A stretch of DNA of 64,000 nucleotides from Paludibacterium sp. B53371 (GTDB taxonomy: Bacteria; Pseudomonadota; Gammaproteobacteria; Burkholderiales; Chromobacteriaceae). Each line of letters begins with the position of its first letter. The stretch's first letter is position 1. The translations under genes were made by a program, and so were the position numbers. Below, in pieces: positions 43,003 through 53,988 of this stretch. The stretch spans positions 3,482,311 to 3,546,310 of the forward strand of contig NZ_CP069163.1 of the NCBI RefSeq assembly GCF_018802765.1, written 5' to 3'. The notes under the pieces are model-generated. The model was given only the letters and a program-made list of their open reading frames with translations, searched no databases and was not told the DNA's origin.

Positions 43003-44763
43003 TCATGTCGCAGAGGGTTGCAGCAGCTTGCTGAGCAGCGTCAGCAATGCCTGCCTTTGCACCGGTTTAGCCAGATAGTCATCGGCACCGGCCGCCAGAC
43101 ATTTTTCCCGGTCGCCTTTCATCGCCAGGCCGGTCAGGGCCAGTATCGGTTTGTGAAAACACAACTCCTGCCGCAATGCTGTTGTGGCCTGATAACCATC
43201 CAGCACCGGCATCATCATGTCCATCATCACCAGTTCGATATCCGGTTGCTGACGGACGATATCCAGCGCCTCCTGGCCATTGCGGGCCACGCAGACGTTC
43301 ATCCCGGCCTCTTCCAGCAGGCTGCTCATGGCAAATACATTGCGGATCTCGTCATCGACCAGCAGCACTTTGCGTCCTGAGAGTTCGGGAGGAAGCGCCA
43401 GGGGCATATCGGCAGACGATTTTGTCTCGTCAAGCCGGCGCAGGGGCGTGTCAGCCAGTTCGTCGGGCAGCAGCGGCAGTCGCAGGGTGAAGGTACTGCC
43501 AAGCTGTGGTTCACTGCGCACCTGCAGGTCGCCACCCAGCAGCGTGGCGAGCTGTCGGGCGATGGCCAGTCCCAGACCCGTGCCGCTGAACTTGCGGCTG
43601 GCACTGCCATCCAGCTGGACAAAGGCTTGAAAGATTTCTTCCTGCTTGTCCGGCGGGATGCCGCAACCCGTGTCGGCGACAGAAAAGCTCAGCCAGGGCT
43701 CGGCGAATGCCAGGCGTATGTGGATTTGCCCGCCCGCGGGGGTAAATTTGCAGGCATTGGAAAACAGGTTTTTCAGAATCTGATAGGTGCGCTTGAAGTC
43801 CAGTACGATGCTATCGGGCAGATCGGGCGCCATCTCACATTGCAGCGACAGCTGGCGTGACTCTGCCATCGGGGCGAAGGCGCGCTGCAGGTAGCTGCAC
43901 AGCTCCGACGTGAGCATCTGCTCCTTGTGCACCTCCAGTTTTCCCGCCTCGATGCGCGACAGATCGAGAATGTCTTCGATCAGTGCCAGCAGATCACAAC
44001 CCGACTGATGGATGATTTCTGCATAGTTGATCTGGCGTGGCAGCAAATTGTGTTGCGGGTTGGCACACAATTGTTCGCTGAGGATCAGGATACTGTTCAG
44101 CGGTGTGCGCAGTTCGTGCGACATATTGGCCAGAAACTCGGATTTGTAGCGGCTGGCTCGCTCTACCTCGGCCGCCTGGGCGTGAAAACGCCCTTCCACG
44201 GCCCGGCGCTCCGAGATGTCGATGATGGAGCTCAATACCATCGTGCCCTTGCTGGTTGCCAGCGGGTTAAGACCGATCTCGACCGGAAAGACGCTGCCAT
44301 CGCGGCGGCAGGCGAACAGCTCCCGGCCCTGGCCCATGGCACGGCTGGTCATCGCCTGCATGAAGCCCTGGCGCAGCATGACATGCTTGCCTCGCAACGC
44401 GGGGGGCAGCAAGGTTTCGACCGGTGCGCCGATCAGTTCCTGCTGGCTATAGCCGAACCACGCTTCAGTGCGGGCATTGAGTGCGGCGATGCGGCCATCG
44501 CGGTCGATCACGACGACGGCGTTGGGGATGGCCTCAATGAAAGGGGCCAGACGGGCACGGAAGTGAGCCCAGGATTGCAGACGAAACGACAGCCACTGCA
44601 GTGGCGCGGGAAAAATGAGTACCGTCAGCCCGATGAGCAGCTGCAGCCATAACCAGTCATGACGATGACCGACCATCAGCAGGCCGGCGACTGATAGCAG
44701 ACACAGGATGACCCAGGCGGCAGACAAACGCCCCAGTATGGTGGGTGGTGCTGGACCCGGCAT
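43003..44763 (-). CDS. Membrane hybrid sensor histidine kinase (PAS-HisKA-HATPase-REC)
   Basis: 586 residues: two closely spaced membrane helices (about 14-31 and 38-56) with almost no periplasmic loop, PAS (about 75-190), HisKA with phosphoacceptor H216 in NMSHELRTP, an ATPase domain (FSNACKF, DTGCGIP, GTGLGLAI), and a C-terminal receiver (MMDMMMPVLDGY). The small sensor region suggests a membrane-state or cytosolic cue. The ATG at 44763 with a GGAGGGAG site is the likely start; upstream in-frame codons are unsupported. It is co-transcribed with the GGDEF-EAL regulator. Confidence 0.9.
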   Translation of the reverse strand: MPGPAPPTILGRLSAAWVILCLLSVAGLLMVGHRHDWLWLQLLIGLTVLIFPAPLQWLSFRLQSWAHFRARLAPFIEAIPNAVVVIDRDGRIAALNARTEAWFGYSQQELIGAPVETLLPPALRGKHVMLRQGFMQAMTSRAMGQGRELFACRRDGSVFPVEIGLNPLATSKGTMVLSSIIDISERRAVEGRFHAQAAEVERASRYKSEFLANMSHELRTPLNSILILSEQLCANPQHNLLPRQINYAEIIHQSGCDLLALIEDILDLSRIEAGKLEVHKEQMLTSELCSYLQRAFAPMAESRQLSLQCEMAPDLPDSIVLDFKRTYQILKNLFSNACKFTPAGGQIHIRLAFAEPWLSFSVADTGCGIPPDKQEEIFQAFVQLDGSASRKFSGTGLGLAIARQLATLLGGDLQVRSEPQLGSTFTLRLPLLPDELADTPLRRLDETKSSADMPLALPPELSGRKVLLVDDEIRNVFAMSSLLEEAGMNVCVARNGQEALDIVRQQPDIELVMMDMMMPVLDGYQATTALRQELCFHKPILALTGLAMKGDREKCLAAGADDYLAKPVQRQALLTLLSKLLQPSAT

Positions 44764-45252
44764 GACGATTCCCTCCCTCCAGGGACCCTCTGAACAAGGG
44801 ATCTCCCTCGCATTCCTGCCCGGCAGGGCAAGGCCCGCCGGGGAAATCACTTGTTCAGAAGGTGCCGGTCAGGATACGCAGCGACACGAATCAAATTCAC
44901 CGGAAAGATGCGTTCAGGAGCCTGCGGCGATGGTCATCCAATATGGATAGATATACAGATGAAATATTGACTTAGCCTAATGATATTGCAAGTCATTTTT
45001 CCGTCGGCCTGCCCTCTCGGACAGGCGAAGGTGCCCAGTTAGTGTTTCTTGAAAAAGGGGACGGGGTAAAGTTTCGCCCGTCAGGGAAAAAAGTGTGCCT
45101 TGAAGGGGAAAAAAGCTCTCTATATCGGGGCATATTTGCCTTGCGTGTCTTTTCAGCGCCGATGAGGGGATTACATTACCCCCTTTCTTGAAAATGCACG
45201 TCAGGACCACCTGGAGGAATTCAGGGACGGCTGGCTCCGAAAGGAAAACAAA
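44764..45252. other. Intergenic region between the kinase operon and hdc
   Basis: A divergent promoter region without a gene. Near the kinase there is an inverted repeat (CTGAACAAG at 44790-44798 with CTTGTTCAG at 44850-44858). Nearer hdc are short G/C stems (GACGGG/CCCGTC at 45060-45082; GGGG/CCCC at 45166-45182). The hdc promoter could use TTGAAG at 45100 with TATATC at 45121, but that spacing is short. Confidence 0.5.
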
Positions 45253-46389
45253 ATGCCTCTGTCCATCGAAAACCAGAACAAGCTGGATGCTTTCTGGGCT
45301 CATTGTGTCAAGAACCAGTACTTCAATATTGGTTACCCTGAGTCGGCCGACTTCGATTACGGCAGTCTGGAGCGCTTCATGCGCTTTTCCCTGAACAATT
45401 GCGGCGATTGGGGGGAGTACTGCAACTACCTGCTGAATTCTTTCGAGTTCGAAAAAGACGTCATTCGCCATTTTGCCCAGCTGTATCGCATTGCGTTCGA
45501 TCAAAGCTGGGGTTACGTCACCAATGGCGGCACCGAAGGCAATATGTTCGGCTGCTATCTGGCACGCGAGCTGTATCCGGACAGCACCCTGTTCTATTCG
45601 CGTGAAACCCATTACTCGGTAGCCAAGATCGTCAAAATGCTGCGCATCAAATCCCAGGTGGTGGATGCCTTGCCCAATGGCGTAATTGACTATCAGGATC
45701 TGATGCGCAAGATCAGCCAGAGTGGTGATCGTCATCCCATTCTGTTTGCCAATCTGGGAACCACGGTCAAGGGAGCGATCGACGACATCGGCCGGATTCA
45801 GCGCCTGATGCAACAGGCCGGCTTTGCCCGCGAGGATTACTATATTCATGGCGATGCCGCACTGAGCGGCATGATCCTGCCCTATGTCGACGAGCCGCAG
45901 CCCTTCAATTTTGCCGACGGCATCGATTCGATCAGTGTGTCGGGCCATAAAATGATTGGCACCCCCATGCCTTGTGGCGTGGTGCTGGCGCGCAAGGCCA
46001 ATGTGGACCAGATCTCGGTTGAAATCGACTATATCGCCGCGCACGACAAGACCATCACCGGCTCGCGTAATGGTCATACGCCGCTGATGTTGTGGTACGC
46101 CATTCATGCGACCCGGTTTGACGAGCAGAAACGCCGTATCGGACATTGCCTGCAAATGGCCCAGTATGCCGTGGATCGTTTCCAGGCCTGCGGCATTGAT
46201 GCCTGGCGCCACCGCAACTCGATCACCGTGGTCTTCCCTTGCCCGTCCGAGGCCGTGTGGAAGAAGCATTGCCTGGCGACCTCGGGTGAGTATGCCCACC
46301 TGATCACCACGGCCCATCATCTGGATACGCAGGCCATTGATGCGCTGATTGATGATGTCGTGGCCGATCTGGCTGCAGTGGCTGCCTGA
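45253..46389 (+). CDS. hdc: Pyridoxal-phosphate-dependent histidine decarboxylase
   Basis: 378-residue group II decarboxylase that converts histidine to histamine and CO2, consuming a cytosolic proton. By recall it matches the Morganella/Raoultella enzymes along its length: [65 protein letters not shown]. The PLP lysine is K233 in VSGHKMIG; H120 stacks on the ring and D201 holds its nitrogen. The start follows AAGGAAAA. The next genes are two HisRS-like proteins, then a PotE/CadB-like antiporter. With the hisJQMP-type importer at 58-62 kb it forms a plausible histidine-driven acid-resistance or energy system. Confidence 0.95.
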
Positions 46390-46453
46390 TCACGGTGGTA
46401 AATCTGTCACAATGACGCCAGGAACATGAGTTTGGCGCCAGGAGACGGAGAAC

Positions 46454-47485
46454 ATGATAGCCAGCGATGCAGCATATGGCCGTACGCCAGAGGTGAGTCA
46501 TCTGCGTTACCGGGTCGAAAGCCAGATCCGTACGGTCATGCATCGCTATGGCTATCAGGAGTTGCGCCTGCAGGCGCTGGAGGAGGATGTCCTGCGCGGC
46601 GATGTCTCGCCCAGTCTGCGCCCGGATGGCCTGCCCTCTTGCGTGCGCGCGGTGCTCGCCATGCATCAGCCCCCGCGGCGTACCCCCGAACGACTCTGGT
46701 TCATCGGCCCGGTGCTCTGGCACAGTCCGCAAGGACCGCGTCAGACCGTGCAGTTTGGCATTGTGACCTTCAATATGCCCACCCCGGCCATCGAGGCCGA
46801 ATTGGTGCTGCTGGTGCGGGATGTGTTCCGCATGACCGGCCTGGCCCACCTGCTGTCGCTGTCGGTGCACAATCTCGGCTCCTGGCAGGAGCAGGCCCGG
46901 TCCGGTGCTCAGCGGCTGGGCGTTGCCAGCCGGCAGCATTTTGCCGAATGGACCCGGCTGCTCGATCAGCTGGGGGTCCGTTGGCAGCCTGCCGCTGATC
47001 CTTCGGTCGGCAAGCATTACTTCAATCATTCGGTCTTCGACTGGCGCTGGCGGGATGCCACGCAGGAAGACAGTCTGTGTATCGGCGGTCGCTGCGATGA
47101 CCTGGCCACCCAACTGAGCGGACGGCCATTGTCTGTGGCCGGTCTGGCCATTGATGTCGAACAACTGATGCAGGTGCTGTGCGAACACCATTTGTCGGAT
47201 AGCCGTGCGGTGCCCCGGGTGTCGCTGAGGGCAGAAAGCCGTGAGCAGGCGACCGATCTGGTGTTGCTGGGGCATGCCCTGCGTGACCAGCTGCCCGGTT
47301 TTCGTATTCGTACCCTGCTGTCCGGCATGGCGCTGGATGAGATCCCTGATCCGGTGGACTGGCGGCTGACCCTGTTGCCGGATGGCCGTTTGTCGGTCTG
47401 GTCGCTGGCGCAGGGCCCGCTGGGCATCCTGTCGCAGCCGGCGCTGCTGCAGCGCATGCAGTCCCTGTCCGCTGCGGGAGACTGA
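46454..47485 (+). CDS. Degenerate histidyl-tRNA synthetase-like protein (no RAYT domain)
   Basis: 343 residues with a class II HisRS-like core. Recognisable are motif 1 (RYGYQELRLQALEE), the ATP/histidine-site stretch SLRPDGLPSCVRA, motif 2 (LWFIGPVLWHSPQGPRQ, about 81-97), the HYFNHSVFDW strand (188-197), IGGRCDD (210-216) and motif 3 (VAGLAIDVEQLM). Key residues are missing: the motif 2 Phe-Arg is Leu-Trp, the catalytic Arg of the RGLDYY loop is Val, GGRYD is GGRCD, and the motif 3 Glu-Arg is Glu-Gln. It should not charge tRNA. Like HisZ it may be a regulatory paralogue, but no hisG is near. It is followed after 2 bases by the RAYT-HisRS fusion. Confidence 0.8.
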   Translation: MIASDAAYGRTPEVSHLRYRVESQIRTVMHRYGYQELRLQALEEDVLRGDVSPSLRPDGLPSCVRAVLAMHQPPRRTPERLWFIGPVLWHSPQGPRQTVQFGIVTFNMPTPAIEAELVLLVRDVFRMTGLAHLLSLSVHNLGSWQEQARSGAQRLGVASRQHFAEWTRLLDQLGVRWQPAADPSVGKHYFNHSVFDWRWRDATQEDSLCIGGRCDDLATQLSGRPLSVAGLAIDVEQLMQVLCEHHLSDSRAVPRVSLRAESREQATDLVLLGHALRDQLPGFRIRTLLSGMALDEIPDPVDWRLTLLPDGRLSVWSLAQGPLGILSQPALLQRMQSLSAAGD

Positions 47486-47487
47486 GC

Positions 47488-49329
47488 ATGCCGCGCAAGG
47501 AAAGACTGCTGGTCACCGAACTGCCCCAACTGATCGCGCTGCGCGGCAACAACAGTGAGCTGTTGTTTCACGACGAAGCGGATCATCGGACCTTTGTCGG
47601 CCATCTGCGCCAGGCCTGTGAGCGATCGGGCATCCGATTGCATGCTTTCGGGCTGTTGCCCTCCCAGGTCTATCTGTTGCTGAGCACCGATGACAAAACC
47701 ACGCTGGCGCGGTTTTCCCAATATCTCGGCCGGGTCTACGTGCCCTACTTCAATCGTCGTCACGGGCGTAGCGGCGTGTTGTGGGAGGGCCGATATCGCA
47801 GTGCAGGCATCGAACCTGCGGGGTATTTTCTGCTGTGTCAGAAGTACATTGAGTTGCGGGCGCAGGAAGCCGGCAGCGAGGTTGATCCTGTCTGGCTGAG
47901 CAGTGCGCCGGCGCATCTCGGCATGCACCGGCTGGATTTCCTGACGCCTCATCCTGCCTGGCTGGCGCTGGCGCCGGATGATTCCGGCCGTCAGGCCCGC
48001 TACCGACAGTTTCTTTCGGTGGCACTCGGTGCCACCTTTATCCACCGGGTGGAAACCTGTCTGAGACAGAATAGTGTCCTGGCCAATCTGAATGATTGCC
48101 TGGCACTGGAGAGTCGTCTGCAGGTGCCGGTGCGGCCGCGTCCTGCCGGACGACCGCGCAAACACTACCCCGACCGGCTCGAATACTGGACCAGGCTGGA
48201 AGGCGTGGCACGTCAGGTGATGCAGGGTGAGGACTACCGGGAAATTCGCCTGCCTCTGCTGGATGAGAGCAATGAAGCCGATGACTGGGCCGCGAGACTG
48301 CTGAGCGATGGCACCATGGGCTGTCTGCAGGCGATTGCCGAACAGCATCTGACCGAACTGCCGGCACGGCTGTGGTATCAGGGGCCGATGTTCCGCACGC
48401 ATCATCTGGACGGCCGTCAGCTGGAGCAGTTCCATCAGATCGGCGCCGAAGCCCTGGGTTACGATGATGTCGATATCGAGCTGGAGCAATTGCTGCTGGA
48501 GCATGCGCTGCTGCAGCGGCTGAAGCTGCTGCCCTGGGTCGAGCTGCAGATCAATAGTCTGGGTACGCCGCGCGAGCTGGCTCGATATCGGGCCTTGCTG
48601 CGGCAGCATTTTGCCCCGGTGCTGGCCGGACTCGACCCGCTGGCGCAAGGTAGTCTGGCCTCTGCCCCAGAGGTGCTGCTGGGCGGTCGCCTGGCCGGCG
48701 TGCCGCGCGAGCTGATCGAGACCGCTCCCGGCATCATGAATTGTCTTTCCAGTGCCAGTCTGGTCCGGCTGGAGCGCCTGACGTCCGCCCTGACCCAGGC
48801 GGGCTTGCCGCATAGTGTCCGCACCGATCTGTTCCCACACCGACCCTTCTATCAGCAGAGCTTTCATGAATGGCAGACGGCTGCGCTGGAGGAACATTCG
48901 GTGGTCTGTCGTGGTGGCCGATATGACGAGATGGCGGCGCGCATCATTGGCCGACCTGTGCCGGCCTGCGGATTTGCCTTCATGGTCGAGCCATTGTTGC
49001 AATTGGCTGAGAAGGCCCGCAGCCAGCCACTGGTGACCCACGTCCGCCGCGACATTGTCATCTTGCCGGCAGAAAGCCATGACATCGCCTTTGCCCTGCA
49101 GGTGGGCAGTATGCTGCGTGAAACCTTTGCTTTCCTGGCGGTAGAGAACGACTTGTCCACCGGGGGACTGGCTGCCCGGCAGCGCCGCGCGAGCGGGCAT
49201 GGCACCCGCCTGCTGTTGACCGTCTCGGCGCTCGATGACCGGATCGAAATCCTGGAGGTCGCCGAACAAATCCGCTCGGGCTGTCGTCGCGAGTCCCTGA
49301 TCAGCAAACTCAGATTGCTGCTGGCCTGA
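47488..49329 (+). CDS. RAYT (Y1 transposase-like)-HisRS-like fusion protein
   Basis: 613 residues in two parts. Residues 1-225 are a full-length REP-associated tyrosine transposase: RGNNS (19-23), HAFGLLPSQVYLLL (52-65), FNRRHGRSGVLWEGRYRS (88-105), the tyrosine helix QKYIELRAQEAG (Y120), the SVLANLNDCLALESRL segment and the AGRPRK end (220-225). The HUH metal motif, normally NHVH, reads SQVY (59-62), so DNA cleavage is unlikely. Residues 230-613 are HisRS-like: RLWYQGPMFRTHHLDGRQ (motif 2, Arg kept), FHQIGAEALG, INSLGT, FYQQSFHEW, CRGGRYDE and CGFAFMVEPLL. The catalytic Arg of RGLDYY and the motif 3 Arg are lost. It probably binds nucleic acid and/or histidine as a regulator. Confidence 0.85.
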   Translation: MPRKERLLVTELPQLIALRGNNSELLFHDEADHRTFVGHLRQACERSGIRLHAFGLLPSQVYLLLSTDDKTTLARFSQYLGRVYVPYFNRRHGRSGVLWEGRYRSAGIEPAGYFLLCQKYIELRAQEAGSEVDPVWLSSAPAHLGMHRLDFLTPHPAWLALAPDDSGRQARYRQFLSVALGATFIHRVETCLRQNSVLANLNDCLALESRLQVPVRPRPAGRPRKHYPDRLEYWTRLEGVARQVMQGEDYREIRLPLLDESNEADDWAARLLSDGTMGCLQAIAEQHLTELPARLWYQGPMFRTHHLDGRQLEQFHQIGAEALGYDDVDIELEQLLLEHALLQRLKLLPWVELQINSLGTPRELARYRALLRQHFAPVLAGLDPLAQGSLASAPEVLLGGRLAGVPRELIETAPGIMNCLSSASLVRLERLTSALTQAGLPHSVRTDLFPHRPFYQQSFHEWQTAALEEHSVVCRGGRYDEMAARIIGRPVPACGFAFMVEPLLQLAEKARSQPLVTHVRRDIVILPAESHDIAFALQVGSMLRETFAFLAVENDLSTGGLAARQRRASGHGTRLLLTVSALDDRIEILEVAEQIRSGCRRESLISKLRLLLA

Positions 49330-50056
49330 GTGCACGGAAATCGTTAAAGCAATAATCGTGCCAATTTATTGTTATTTGCCCATGTGGTGATCAGGGTTGT
49401 TTGCGCGTCAAAAACAATAAGTCGTTGAATTTGTGAATACTTAAGTAAACTCTGATGTTGTTTGCGTGGCTGAGTTATGCTCATTTACGACGTTTTTCTG
49501 ATGTTCGGCTGTTTTCCCCTTGTCGCCCGTTCGTGCCGACAAATCATGCCCCTTGCGCTGAACGCAAATCGACTTCTCTGTAGTGTTTTTCGCTGACTGA
49601 TCGCGGTGAATCATTCTGTTTTATCAGGAAAAACAGCATTTTACGGCCAAAATCAGGAAGATTTCCCCATGTGAGCTAAGTCAAAAGTGCTGTCAGACAG
49701 GCTGGTGTTGTCTTGCGCCTGTGCTATAACGCAAAAAATTCTCTGCGACTGTTAATGATTTTGGGCCCAGTGCTGGTTTCTGCGCGATATTGAACGGTCG
49801 TTCTGCTGTCATGTCCCGTATTTACTATGGCGGGATCGTCCCTGACGCGGTCGGATAGTGGTCACAGTTGGCGCGCATGATTAGAAAATTGCCTTATCTA
49901 TCCGGCATGTGCAGCGCTTGTTTTATTTTTGCCAGTAATTTGAGCGTCAGAATGCCAGGTGCGTGACTGGGCAAAATTAATTCGAACTGCATGTCTCGAT
50001 TATTCTTTCGTCATTGCATTTATGCTGCAGCGCAATGTGCGGAATTGAATTGGAAC

Positions 50057-50070
50057 TTGATGTGCATCAA
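50057..50070. promoter_or_regulatory. FNR/ANR-type binding site upstream of the antiporter gene
   Basis: TTGATGTGCATCAA is a perfect TTGAT-N4-ATCAA box. About 30 bases downstream is an AT-rich -10-like stretch (50095-50103), which puts the box near -41.5, the class II activation position. This predicts induction at low oxygen from a promoter about 300 bases before the start codon. Confidence 0.6.
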
Positions 50071-50333
50071 GTAGTGAAGTTGTCATCGGAAGCACATTAT
50101 ATACAATTCTGAATATTACCAATTTCTCATATTTGTGACGTGAAGCAGTGGGCTTCAGCTTGTAGCGATTCTGGTTGGGCAAACGCATGGTGTGCCTGAC
50201 CGATGGCGTAACCCGGTAGTTTCGGGGGTTGTACAGAATCCCGGTCTTATCGTAACGAGAGTCCGGGCGCATGCCGGATCAAGGAGGTTGTCGGGCAACT
50301 GGCGATCACCAGGGATGCGAAAGCCAATTGGTC

Positions 50334-50368
50334 GGCGTCAACGGGTGTGGATTTATCCACATGACGCC
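50334..50368 (+). promoter_or_regulatory. Nested hairpin in the antiporter leader
   Basis: Outer arms GGCGTCA (50334-50340) and TGACGCC (50362-50368) enclose TGTGGA/TCCACA. There is no T-run, so it is not a terminator. It lies about 30 bases before the ribosome site. The inner arm also reads as a DnaA box (TTATCCACA, 50353-50361), probably by chance. Confidence 0.5.
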
Positions 50369-50409
50369 ATACCGATTAATGTTCGTTGCAGTACATTGGG
50401 AGCAATAAT

Positions 50410-51750
50410 ATGTCTTCTAAGTCGTCGAAAATGGGGTTGTCCGCGCTGACAATCTTCGTTGCGCTGAACATGATGGGGTCCGGGATTTTCCTGCTGCCCG
50501 CCAGTTTGGCCAAAGTCGGTTCGATCAGTATCTTTGGTTGGATCTTGTCCACCGGTGGGGCGATTGCCCTGGCTGTTTCCTTCTCCAAGCTGAGTTTCCT
50601 GTGCCCGAAAGAGGGCGGTATGTACGCTTACGCCCGTGACGGCGTTGGCGAATATGCGGCATTCACCGAAACCTGGTGCTACTGGCTGTCGCTGTGGGTC
50701 GGTAACGTGGCCATTGCCATTGCCGGTATCGGTTACATGTCCTACTTCTTCCCGGCACTGAAGGACCCGATGACGGGTGCGATCGCCTCCATCGTCGCGA
50801 TCTGGTTCTTCACCTTCCTGAACTATCCGGGTGCCGGCTTCATCGGCAAGATCCAGAAGTTCACTTCGCTGGGGATGCTGATTCCGGTAGCTGGTATGGC
50901 CGTTCTGGGCTGGTTCTTCTTCCATCCGGAATACATCAGCGCCAACTGGAACGTGTCCGGCAAGAACAGCTGGGATGCCATCATGTCGGCTTCTTCCCTG
51001 ACCCTGTGGGCATTCCTGGGTCTGGAGTCCGCTTGCGTCGTGAGTGGCGTGGTGGAAAACCCGAAGAAGAACGTGCCGATCGCTACCATGCTCGGTACCC
51101 TGTTCGCTGCCGTGGTGTACATCCTGTCGACCTTCGCCATCATGGGCGTGGTACCGGCCAAGGAACTGGCTGCTTCTGCCGCACCGTTCAGTACCGCCGC
51201 TCAATACATGTTCGGCAGCTGGGCCGGCTCGTTCGTCAGCTTCTGCGCCGTAGTGGCCTGCCTGGGTTCGCTGAACGGCTGGGTACTGACCACTGGCCAA
51301 GTGTCCAAGGCTGCTGCTGATGACGGCATGTTCCCGAAGATCTTCTCGGAAACCAACAAGTATGGCACGCCGTTCAAGGGCATGATCCTGACCGGCCTGC
51401 TGATGACTTTCCTGGGCTATATGACGGTTTCGCCTGACCTGGCTTCGCAGTTCCAGATCATCACCCTGCTGTGCGTGTTCACCAACGTGGTACCGTACAT
51501 CCTGGCTGTGGCCGGTATCTATCCGATCATGAAGGAAAACAATGTCAGCAAGGCAGAGTTCTCCAAGTATGGTCTGATCGCCCTGCTGGCAATCGTTTAC
51601 TGCTTCTACGTACTGGCTGGCTCCGGCAAGGACATCGTGTTCTACGGCGCGCTGACCATGCTGCTGTCCGTGCCGATGTATGGCTGGATCGCTCATTCGG
51701 TCAAGCAAAAGCGCAAGGCTCAGGCTGCTGAAGCCCAGGCCAACGCTTAA
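50410..51750 (+). CDS. APC-family antiporter, probable histidine/histamine exchanger
   Basis: 446-residue, 12-helix inner-membrane antiporter of the basic amino acid/polyamine group (PotE, CadB, AdiC). The substrate-binding motif MMGSGIFLLPASLA in helix 1, the GGMYAYARDGVGEY loop, TLWAFLGLESACVVSGVVENPKKNVPIA (read in pieces) and the GSLNGWVLTTGQVSKAAA region align with PotE by recall. It lies downstream of the hdc cluster, and Gram-negative hdc clusters carry related transporters (hdcT), so histidine-in/histamine-out exchange is the best guess; ornithine/putrescine exchange is the alternative. The ATG at 50410 has GGGAG upstream. Expression is probably FNR-dependent. Two terminators follow. 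Confidence 0.82.
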   Translation: MSSKSSKMGLSALTIFVALNMMGSGIFLLPASLAKVGSISIFGWILSTGGAIALAVSFSKLSFLCPKEGGMYAYARDGVGEYAAFTETWCYWLSLWVGNVAIAIAGIGYMSYFFPALKDPMTGAIASIVAIWFFTFLNYPGAGFIGKIQKFTSLGMLIPVAGMAVLGWFFFHPEYISANWNVSGKNSWDAIMSASSLTLWAFLGLESACVVSGVVENPKKNVPIATMLGTLFAAVVYILSTFAIMGVVPAKELAASAAPFSTAAQYMFGSWAGSFVSFCAVVACLGSLNGWVLTTGQVSKAAADDGMFPKIFSETNKYGTPFKGMILTGLLMTFLGYMTVSPDLASQFQIITLLCVFTNVVPYILAVAGIYPIMKENNVSKAEFSKYGLIALLAIVYCFYVLAGSGKDIVFYGALTMLLSVPMYGWIAHSVKQKRKAQAAEAQANA

Positions 51751-51990: not shown

Positions 51991-53661
51991 TCAGAGGATC
52001 AGGCGCAACGCCGTGGTGGAGCTGGAGCTGGCACCTTGCAGTTCGGAGGACACATACAGCTTGGTCGGCATGTCTGCCCGGGCCATCTTGTCGAAGCCAT
52101 GGGCGAAGAACAGACCGTCGGTTGGACCGGACAACAGGTACAGCGCACCGATCTGCTTGGCGCGGGCTCGTTCAATCAGCGCTCGCAGCAGCCGCTTGGC
52201 CACCGACTTGCCGCGCATGTGCGACGACACGACCAGCGAGCGGATCAGGCCGATATCGCCATACACTTCCATGCCGATGGCGCCGATGACGCGACCATTC
52301 TCGGTGGCTACGACAAAATTCATCAGGTGATTCAGCGCACCCTGCACCGGCAGACGATTGGCGGTCAGCAGATTGCGAATCTCGTTCCAGTCGGTGGGGG
52401 AGGCGGCCTGAAACAGAATGCCGTCCTCCGGTTCGACTTCAGCGGGGGCCGGTTGCTCTTCGACCTCCGCTTCCTGCATCTGCTCGCGCTGCAGCAGCTT
52501 GTTGAACAGCGAGCCCTGAGACAGCAGTTTCTGGAACAGCGATCCGGTGCGTTGCGGTTCGCCGGCCATGCTTTGCGGCATGGCTGGCGTGACGGGCGCG
52601 GCGGGTCGGCTGGCCGTGGCACGCTGTGCCGGCTGAGTGCTGACCGGTGTCACTGGCGTACGGGGATTGGTTGTCGCTGCCGGCGGGACCGCCCGGGTGC
52701 TGCTGATGGTCGGACGAACCACCGGTTCGCTCGGCGGGGTGACCGGGGCGCGGGACTGGGCATCGAGCGCTTCCTGCTGGCGGTCTTCTCCTTTTTGCGC
52801 CGCACGCGACAAGGGCGTGCGCGGCGTGGTGCGGGATAACAGCGGACGTGTCGGCAGGGTCTTGGAGCCAACAATCCGGGTATGCGCAACCGGCACCGGA
52901 GGACGGACCTTGTCCGCCAGGGGGGAGTGTGGCCGTGTCGCTGCAGGGGTTTCTGCCTTGGCAACCGGCGCCTCGACGGCAGACGCCGCCGTGACCGTTT
53001 CCACTTCCACGGCGACCGTCTCGGCGACGGCTTCCGTGACAACTTCAGGCTGTTCGTCGGCGATGGTCGCTGCGGTGGCCTCGACAGCTTTCACCGGCTC
53101 GGCCATGGCTTCTTCGCCGACGGGAGCGGCCGCCTCTTGCGCTGTCTCGGTGGTCCCGGCAGGCATGGGCTCTTCGCTTGCGGCTGACGTGGCGGACACC
53201 GGTGCGGCGGCCAATGCTGCCGCGGCAGCTTCCGGCTGCTCGTTGCCCTGCATGCCGGCGATCAGCATGGCAAGCGCCTTGCGGATCTGCTCGCGCTGCG
53301 CGGCATCCAGCGTTTGCATCCATTGTTCTGCGTGGCTGTCGAGCGACACATTCAAGGCCTGGTAGCGTTTGCGGCCTTTGGCCGTCAACTCCAGCCAGCG
53401 GCTGCGCCGGTCGTTGTCATGGCGGGATTTGGCCACCAGCTCTGCCTGCACCAGGCTTTCGACGGCCCGACTGACCCAGCCCTTGTCCAGGCTGAGGCGG
53501 CGACCGAGTTCCTGCTGGGTCAGCAGGCCGGCCTGACCAAGCTCCATCAGCACATGGCTTTGGGTTGATGAGGTGTCATGGCCACTGGTTACATGCTCGC
53601 GCTGTGCCTGGTTGTAGAGGCGGGTCAGCTCGCGCAGCAAGTTTCCGATTGAGGGCTGCAT
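51991..53661 (-). CDS. MarR regulator-long linker-ArsN2-like GNAT fusion
   Basis: 556 residues. A MarR-type winged helix (about 1-138: TQSHVLMELGQAGLLTQQELGRRLSLDKGWVSR read in pieces, wing SRHDNDRRSRW) is joined by a low-complexity Ala/Pro/Thr/Glu-rich linker (about 145-410) to a GNAT domain (about 412-556). The GNAT part resembles the ArsN2 group: LPVQGALNHLMNF, GDIGLIRSLVV, the acetyl-CoA loop MRGKSVAKRLL and LLSGPTDGLFFAHGF. MarR-GNAT fusions exist, but a 265-residue linker is unusual. Translation is placed at 53661, with AGGA upstream. A palindrome overlapping its -35 suggests autorepression. The acetylation target is unknown. Confidence 0.8.
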   Translation of the reverse strand: MQPSIGNLLRELTRLYNQAQREHVTSGHDTSSTQSHVLMELGQAGLLTQQELGRRLSLDKGWVSRAVESLVQAELVAKSRHDNDRRSRWLELTAKGRKRYQALNVSLDSHAEQWMQTLDAAQREQIRKALAMLIAGMQGNEQPEAAAAALAAAPVSATSAASEEPMPAGTTETAQEAAAPVGEEAMAEPVKAVEATAATIADEQPEVVTEAVAETVAVEVETVTAASAVEAPVAKAETPAATRPHSPLADKVRPPVPVAHTRIVGSKTLPTRPLLSRTTPRTPLSRAAQKGEDRQQEALDAQSRAPVTPPSEPVVRPTISSTRAVPPAATTNPRTPVTPVSTQPAQRATASRPAAPVTPAMPQSMAGEPQRTGSLFQKLLSQGSLFNKLLQREQMQEAEVEEQPAPAEVEPEDGILFQAASPTDWNEIRNLLTANRLPVQGALNHLMNFVVATENGRVIGAIGMEVYGDIGLIRSLVVSSHMRGKSVAKRLLRALIERARAKQIGALYLLSGPTDGLFFAHGFDKMARADMPTKLYVSSELQGASSSSTTALRLIL

Positions 53662-53718
53662 TACAGATTCCTGAAGATAATTTACTGCTCCAGAAAGCAA
53701 GATATAATTCGAGTATGC

Positions 53719-53735
53719 GGTTGTCAACAACAACC
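53719..53735 (-). promoter_or_regulatory. Operator-like palindrome over the MarR-GNAT promoter
   Basis: GGTTGT-CAACA-ACAACC. On the minus strand it contains a TTGACA -35 (53722-53727) followed by an AT-rich -10 region (TTATATC near 53704). The overlap is typical of MarR autoregulation. Confidence 0.5.
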
Positions 53736-53988
53736 AACAAAAATTAATCACTTTTGATACAGCAACAATCAGATTGACGTAAAAAAGCCATCAGTCGATT
53801 CTGATGATTGTTGTAAATCAACTATATTTCATGCGCAGGGAGAGTGAAAGCAAAGAAGAGAAAATTAATTGTCTGGCGAAGGAAAGTGTCGCTAATTTCT
53901 CGAAAATCCCTGTGACATAAGATGTCCAGGTGTTCGAGGAAAAATGTTGCCTTGTGCAACTAAATGAAATTTATTTCCAGGTAAATCA

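Follow-up and report, generated by a model that had tools for sequence, protein, structure and literature searches.

The window, i.e. the whole stretch of DNA analysed here (64 kb), carries a cluster in which a histidine decarboxylase gene (hdc) is followed on the same strand by a second gene related to histidyl-tRNA synthetase (HisRS), by a fusion gene and by an antiporter gene (Table 1). The fusion gene joins a Y1 transposase domain of the RAYT/TIRYT type to a HisRS-like domain. For the antiporter, the list of open reading frames gives a start at TTG in position 50386, the start in Table 1 being the in-frame ATG. Directly upstream of the fusion, the 343-residue HisRS-like protein occupies the slot held by an intact second HisRS gene (hisRS2) in genomes G004 and G005. 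Because Thr85, Arg113, Glu131 and Tyr288 are gone in 3 of 3 such proteins, it is doubtful that this protein binds histidine in the same manner. It is also placed on a long branch (3.1).

Table 1 Features of the hdc cluster, with positions in the window
Feature	Positions	Strand	Evidence or occurrence
TIR-like element AAAAGGGGACGGGGT, proposed operator	45053..45067	+	
-10-like hexamer TACATT, 115 bp from start of element core	45172..45177	+	
Strongly conserved block immediately 5' of hdc, probable 5' UTR	45191..45235	+	G000, G002, G003
PLP-dependent histidine decarboxylase hdc	45253..46389	+	NF002748, 576 bits, cut-off 305
Second HisRS-like gene, 343 aa, degenerate, pocket residues lost	46454..47485	+	
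RAYT/TIRYT-HisRS fusion gene, 613 aa	47488..49329	+	open frame; ten fusions aligned
Y1 transposase (RAYT/TIRYT) domain, residues 1-225, HUH = S-Q-V-Y, Tyr120, GRPRK tail	47488..48162	+	
HisRS-like domain, residues 228-613, Arg259/Arg311 to Pro, several histidine-site residues retained	48169..49329	+	
FNR-type box TTGATGTGCATCAA upstream of hdcP	50057..50070	+	
Conserved block upstream of hdcP, promoter-like	50090..50134	+	G000, G002, G003
HdcP-like APC antiporter, probable histidine/histamine exchange	50410..51750	+	

On either side, the cluster is bordered by genes on the complementary strand. A hybrid histidine kinase with PAS, HisKA and receiver domains (43003-44850) is divergent from hdc and shares the upstream region with it; G003 and G002 each have a relative in the corresponding position. 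At the other end, a protein composed of a MarR domain, a long Ala/Pro-rich linker and a GNAT acetyltransferase (51991-53751) is conserved in G002 and G003 (66-68%).

Domains and active-site residues of the fusion

The fusion gene is a single uninterrupted reading frame of 613 codons that begins at ATG, as the original prediction had it. An assembly error as its source was rejected, and the frame is unbroken in all ten loci in which the fusion was found. Residues 1 to 225 had been assigned to a RAYT reaching as far as a GRPRK motif, and this motif indeed forms residues 221-225. By Pfam, the transposase half is weak: Y1_Tnp matches the window protein with E 0.0014 and 19.2 bits, under the 23-bit cut-off, and is matched by nine of the ten fusions at E ≤ 0.1 (best 2e-6). 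The relationship is clear, however, against 19 free-standing RAYT proteins, for which phmmer gave E-values from 1e-16 to 5e-41 in searches inside single loci and, hence, tiny databases; RAYT homology spans the full domain. No HTH family is present among the Pfam matches of the ten fusions at E ≤ 0.1.

The assignment of the C-terminal part to HisRS was likewise borne out. Pfam tRNA-synt_His covers residues 228-503 of the window fusion (E 6.7e-23), and a profile of the ten fusions, searched against solved structures, finds E. coli HisRS at 3.6e-78, with the alignment extending to the HisRS C-terminal end. With 145 bits, the window fusion remains below the 286.75 cut-off of TIGR00442 (hisS), and with 84.7 bits compared to 271.65 it fails the hisZ equivalog cut-off, by which membership in HisZ was rejected.

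In the transposase domain, the HUH position of the window protein reads SQVY and Tyr120 is present, both as predicted. None of the ten fusions has both HUH histidines, and each of the two occurs singly in one fusion. The claim that the catalytic tyrosine is kept holds for the window protein and seven further fusions (8 of 10), but not universally, since Phe takes its place in the other two. His at window position 15 is found in 16 of 16 free-standing RAYTs counted and is absent from all ten fusions; three of the 19 free-standing proteins were left out of this count, L048 and L052 being HUH-degenerate themselves and L044_5968 divergent. In contrast to these losses, R3, R6, P13, G20, N89, G96, R102, L161 and G221 are present in 10 of 10 fusions and the GRPRK tail is invariant.

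The HisRS part is homologous to HisRS over residues 228-613 and retains several residues of the histidine site, while it lacks the N-terminal stretch of HisRS and has the next stretch reduced. The predicted absence of the RGLDYY Arg and the motif 3 Arg was confirmed in the window protein, and throughout the ten fusions Arg259 and the motif 3 residue Arg311 are replaced by Pro and Arg121 is lost. Arg121 and Arg311 presumably serve ATP. The histidine site, on the other hand, we take to be lined by Thr85, Gln127, Glu131 and Tyr264. Thr85, Gln127 and Tyr288 are retained in 10 of 10 fusions; for Tyr264 the count depends on gap placement, being 10 of 10 in the alignment of the ten fusions and by ungapped counting from Glu270 towards the N terminus, and 5 of 10 in the alignment of 53 rows. 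Among the nine charged residues described as conserved among HisRSs (PMC8558854), Glu131, Glu270 and Arg287 are retained and Glu47, Glu83 and Asp141 remain acidic in all ten fusions, Arg113 is kept in nine, and Arg259 and Asp13 are gone. A set of 40 HisRSs has 89 invariant columns, of which 21 are retained in all ten fusions, 27 are lost in all and 41 are mixed. The HisZ-like row PalG002_x_2 was excluded from the table of HisRS residues. Judged by its residues, the pattern fits histidine binding without chemistry, although with 27 of 89 columns lost the histidine pocket might be dead as well. Both enzymes of the fusion look catalytically dead, and as an enzyme the fusion belongs to neither parent family.

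Distribution, gene order and origin

Ten fusions were found, namely in five of six Paludibacterium genomes, in four Enterobacteriaceae-type genomes and in one Klebsiella aerogenes record, and every one of them lies inside an hdc cluster. The architecture expected to be conserved in databases and to co-occur with hdc was thus recovered, and neither a frameshift nor absence from related genomes, both considered in the original prediction, applies. Among 61 genomes (the own genome and relatives), a full-length fusion is carried by G000, G002, G003, G004 and G005, all of one genus, while G001, the sixth genome of the genus, has neither fusion nor hdc. In 61 family genomes, hdc occurs in 11, comprising the five fusion carriers and six genomes of another genus; no HisRS, HdcP or RAYT was found in the stretches fetched around hdc of the latter six. 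A class sample of 369 genomes (E ≤ 1e-45, best few candidates per genome) gave the fusion only in the own genome. Here, hdc occurs in 15 genomes, and the fetched stretches of the 14 others, some of them short, contain no HisRS, HdcP or RAYT. No fusion was obtained from the order of G199 (394 genomes, E ≤ 1e-55, best few candidates per genome) in a scan without positive control; in some rows of the class and order scans, the best three candidates per genome were scored.

In the K. aerogenes plasmid-collection record LR134122.1, antiporter, hdc, hisS_2 and hisS_3 follow one another, and hisS_3, annotated as HisRS, is the fusion (36% over 99%). The family of G467, taken as Enterobacteriaceae since part of the G467 rpoB is 95% identical to that of E. 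coli, is represented by 109 genomes from 108 genera; a close hdc occurs in four, each of which has the fusion in that cluster. Both genomes from the G459 family have hdc. G459 is the only well-covered genome with antiporter-hdc-hisRS2 that lacks the fusion, giving no match in the order scan (best few candidates); the 4.2 kb of contig available for G484 are too little for a judgement. Among phages, 16 records matched the fusion, none covering 80%; a DNA search for the RAYT part in E. coli genomes and a search of IMG/VR with patterns from the K. aerogenes protein did not find it.

The gene order antiporter-hdc-hisRS2-fusion is shared by G004, G005, K. aerogenes, G852, G861 and G864, with a second antiporter between hdc and hisRS2 in G861. 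In G854 (locus L114), the fusion and the first antiporter gene (hdcP) are transcribed divergently, with the upstream element described below situated between the two, and in G000, G002 and G003 the order is hdc, degenerate HisRS, fusion and, after ~1 kb, antiporter.

In a tree of the HisRS part (53 rows) the ten fusions form one clade with support 100/100, and they do so in a tree of the RAYT part (29 rows) with support 97/98; conflict between the two trees in the inner order of the fusions was not seen. For four Paludibacterium pairs, dN (NG86) amounts to 0.13-0.30 and dS to 1.2-1.8 in both domains, as under purifying selection; no dS was computable for the enteric pair. Since both domain trees unite the fusions and dN is well below dS, the sequences indicate that the two parts were joined once and then kept. 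That the fusion might be a chimeric or decaying gene without function is hardly credible: the long branches, with 1.77 changes per site preceding the HisRS part, would agree with decay, but the frame is intact in all ten loci, dN is well below dS and, with 35-77% of residues identical to the window protein, the aligned fusions still have 101 invariant columns in common.

The element upstream of the operon

Upstream of the first gene of the operon lies an element, first noticed by eye, with the consensus GGGGACGG(A/G)GT following an A-run. When the regions upstream of hdc in G000, G002 and G003 are aligned, AAAAAGGGGACGGGGT is conserved and its surroundings are poorly so. Upstream of the antiporter, GGGGACGGAGT follows an A-run in G005, K. 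aerogenes, G852, G861 and G864, and G854 has TGGGACAGAGT with two core mismatches. The exact core is present in 8 of 9 testable fusion loci, G004 being excluded with only 150 bp upstream on its contig. In all nine, the distance from the start of the core to the first operon gene, measured to its first in-frame ATG, is 165-200 bp (in K. aerogenes, where the gene start is unsure and the record annotates a later one, it is 200 bp to the ATG chosen). In the window, the element falls inside the stretch from 44.9 to 45.25 kb which had been named as a candidate target.

A -10-like hexamer follows the start of the core at 115 bp in seven of the nine loci and at 114 and 116 bp in one each, this distance being similar in hdc-first and hdcP-first loci. 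Summed over the loci, the TATAAT match at 115 bp is 34, while 85 distances average 15.2 (s.d. 5.0), with weak hexamers (AAAAAT) in K. aerogenes and G852. Where hdcP comes first (six loci), the element is followed by an FNR/CRP-like box at 81 bp in five and at 80 bp in one, the box pattern having been chosen after viewing the sequences; no such box was found before hdc in G000, G002 and G003. In the window, the FNR-type box before hdcP would point to anaerobic control of histidine/histamine exchange.

Several searches bear on the specificity of the element. In a word test with seven loci, which excluded G002 and G003 because they nearly duplicate G000, it is the most shared 11-mer, present in 6 of 7 (not in G854), while 20 shuffles, which do not remove shared ancestry, reach 3-4. 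Allowing up to 3 mismatches, the element occurs once in the 64-kb window, with 0 mismatches, against 0.43 expected. In 800 kb (22%) of G000, the 15-mer has no match with up to 2 mismatches, and the bare exact core without A-run is found once (L159). Among 25 control hdc loci, most of which are other kinds of hdc locus, the core within 1 mismatch is present in none over up to 600 bp upstream of hdc, the best match having 2 mismatches in 7 and 3-4 in 18; the exact core is absent from 354,966 bases of control hdc loci. The G854 element rests on place and spacing, as 7 of the 25 controls also reach 2 mismatches. In G459, the 15-mer was not found with up to 3 mismatches, the best site upstream of hdcP having 4. 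Each of the nine testable loci has a conserved site upstream of the putative regulated promoter. Five of these nine sequences belong to two close groups (G000/G002/G003 and K. aerogenes/G852), so that fewer than nine cases are independent.

Some TIRs flanking TIRYT genes are described as sharing the core GGGGWSAS (PMC3733652), from which the element differs by one base. Around the 19 free-standing RAYTs, all kept for a scan of 150 bp outside the genes and some bases inside, GGGGWCRGA with up to 1 mismatch occurs in inverse orientation at the downstream end of 12, the opposite orientation giving 7, and in direct orientation at the upstream end of 7, the opposite one giving 4. The strand controls are modestly exceeded, and the free-standing relative in L049 has exact GGGGACGGAGT at its gene end. 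On the basis of this TIR core, the RAYT flank motif and the L049 gene end, the proposed operator resembles a transposon end of the class to which the fused transposase belongs.

No inverted partner of the element was found downstream of the fusion in the window (up to 3 mismatches). Beside the element, no consistent fold of a REP-like hairpin was obtained, 3 of 18 stretches, from three loci, giving z below -2.2. In view of the homology to RAYTs and of the patchy distribution in Neisseriales and Enterobacteriaceae, the fusion could be seen as an active or relic mobile element, i.e. a transposase fused by chance to a synthetase and travelling with the hdc cluster. This is very improbable given that no fusion keeps both HUH histidines, that two lack the tyrosine, that there is no second element downstream and that dN is well below dS in both domains; an active transposase was rejected.

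The predicted nucleic-acid-binding regulator gains a candidate DNA target in a TIR-like element whose distance from the promoter is almost constant. As this element lies upstream of the inferred promoter, DNA is more likely to be the target than RNA, so that this part of the prediction stands in narrower form. Post-transcriptional control, in which translation or stability of the mRNA would respond to binding of the fusion to uncharged tRNA-His or to a leader hairpin of hdc or hdcP, is unlikely. Hairpin binding is described for TnpA-REP proteins (PMC8266576) and uncharged tRNA is reported to activate Gcn2 via its HisRS-like domain (PMC4335047). Moreover, the fusion profile aligns to HisRS through its C-terminal end, both leaders are well conserved in G000, G002 and G003, the three close genomes compared, and the fold of the hdcP leader beats those of 99 out of 100 shuffled sequences (z -2.43). 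However, the element of all nine testable loci is upstream of the inferred -10 and, hence, outside the mRNA, a structured hdc leader is not supported by folding (z 0.14 against shuffles) and Rfam gave no match in 44800-50500. In the leader upstream of hdcP (50120-50420), a GTAG is located in a small hairpin.

Proposed role and comparison with known systems

The fusion is probably a one-component regulator of the hdc operon with a DNA-binding half from a dead transposase and a histidine-sensing half from a dead HisRS. The original view of two enzymes turned into binding modules, perhaps regulating the hdc cluster, is supported at the sequence level by the 10/10 hdc linkage, the lost catalytic residues and the 9/9 occurrence of the element.

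With respect to DNA binding, ligand, dimerisation and sign of regulation, we infer the following. The N-terminal half, a catalytically dead Y1 transposase of the TIRYT class, would serve as DNA-binding domain and recognise one relic transposon end, GGGGACGG(A/G)GT, ~125 bp ahead of the point at which transcription of the first gene of the hdc operon presumably begins. The C-terminal half would act as a sensor and is probably dimeric; HisRS relatives form dimers. While lacking the arginines needed for histidyl-adenylate, it would probably still hold histidine, the substrate of the operon. Histidine binding would then alter the seating of the paired transposase domains on the site and turn the promoter, often of FNR/CRP type, up or down. 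Contact with the promoter complex is suggested by the almost constant distances to the -10 and to the FNR/CRP-type site. Activation is slightly preferred over repression, since a decarboxylase system is usually induced by the amino acid on which it acts. More generally, we lean towards a transposon recognition pair domesticated as a switch, in which the transposase became the DNA-binding domain, the terminal repeat the operator and the dead HisRS the histidine sensor.

A role as accessory subunit of the hdc-linked HisRS2 (or of the degenerate HisRS-like protein), tuning histidine charging while the element serves another regulator, appears rather improbable. The clusters of G004, G005 and five enteric loci do contain an extra intact hisRS2, and HisZ is described as a HisRS paralogue working as a subunit (PMC9437257). 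Such a role leaves the transposase domain and the transposon-end-like element unexplained, however, and in L114 the fusion lies apart from hisRS2 and divergent from hdcP.

As a regulator, the fusion can be compared with several known systems. With RAYT/TIRYT (TnpA-REP) proteins, which are IS200/IS605-like, it shares the domain, a similar length and the GRP-type tail, and the element resembles their TIR core. Unlike them, it never has both HUH histidines together (0/10), is joined to HisRS and linked to a metabolic operon, and has one upstream element, a flanking TIR/REP pair not being found. HisZ, which regulates HisG, is likewise described as a HisRS-derived regulator without adenylation (PMC9437257), but the fusion is hdc-linked, bears a transposase domain and fails the HisZ cut-off. 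In Gcn2, described as a eukaryotic kinase binding uncharged tRNA, a HisRS-related domain is also a sensor. We know of no DNA-binding partner of this domain in Gcn2. BirA combines a class II synthetase-like fold with a DNA-binding domain in a ligand-responsive repressor, makes its own adenylate and uses a winged helix, whereas in the fusion no sign of adenylate making or of a winged helix was found. To our knowledge, a precedent for the two modules together with the operator is lacking in bacteria.

Extra hisRS genes in hdc clusters are already known (PMC12072131, PMC12369411, PMC8465708). The Morganella hdcT1-hdc-hdcT2-hisRS and Photobacterium hisRS-hdc-antiporter clusters (PMC12072131, PMC12369411), compared here by description, represent the same operon type with a HisRS gene; the passages on them mention a single hisRS, and a fusion is not among the genes named. 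When Y1 transposases were surveyed, a few proteins of unexpected length were excluded as being fusions or errors of annotation (PMC6006769). In line with the prediction that the fusion is undescribed, no description was found among the titles and abstracts listed from open-licence PMC papers, in searches directed partly at the fusion.

Bacterial histamine production leads to fish poisoning, and among the open-licence titles listed for Gram-negative hdc, none names a regulator of these operons. If the proposed role is correct, the fusion would be such a regulator, and a transcription-factor family made of two dead enzymes would have been hidden in hdc-carrying bacteria under the name of histidyl-tRNA synthetase. 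It would likewise be a HisRS-derived amino-acid sensor joined directly to a DNA-binding domain, and a bacterial example of a transposase and its terminal repeat turned into regulator and operator, for which transposase-derived transcription factors of plants are a comparable case (PMC6000157). With the fusion, RAYT domestication has a candidate operator that is concrete and can be assayed simply. Two free-standing RAYTs are possibly further domesticated: L101:8340-9092 of G045, which lacks HUH (NDSVR) and sits between aroKB-like genes and a gltB-like gene (named by eye from translations), and the HUH-degenerate L052:1724-2419.
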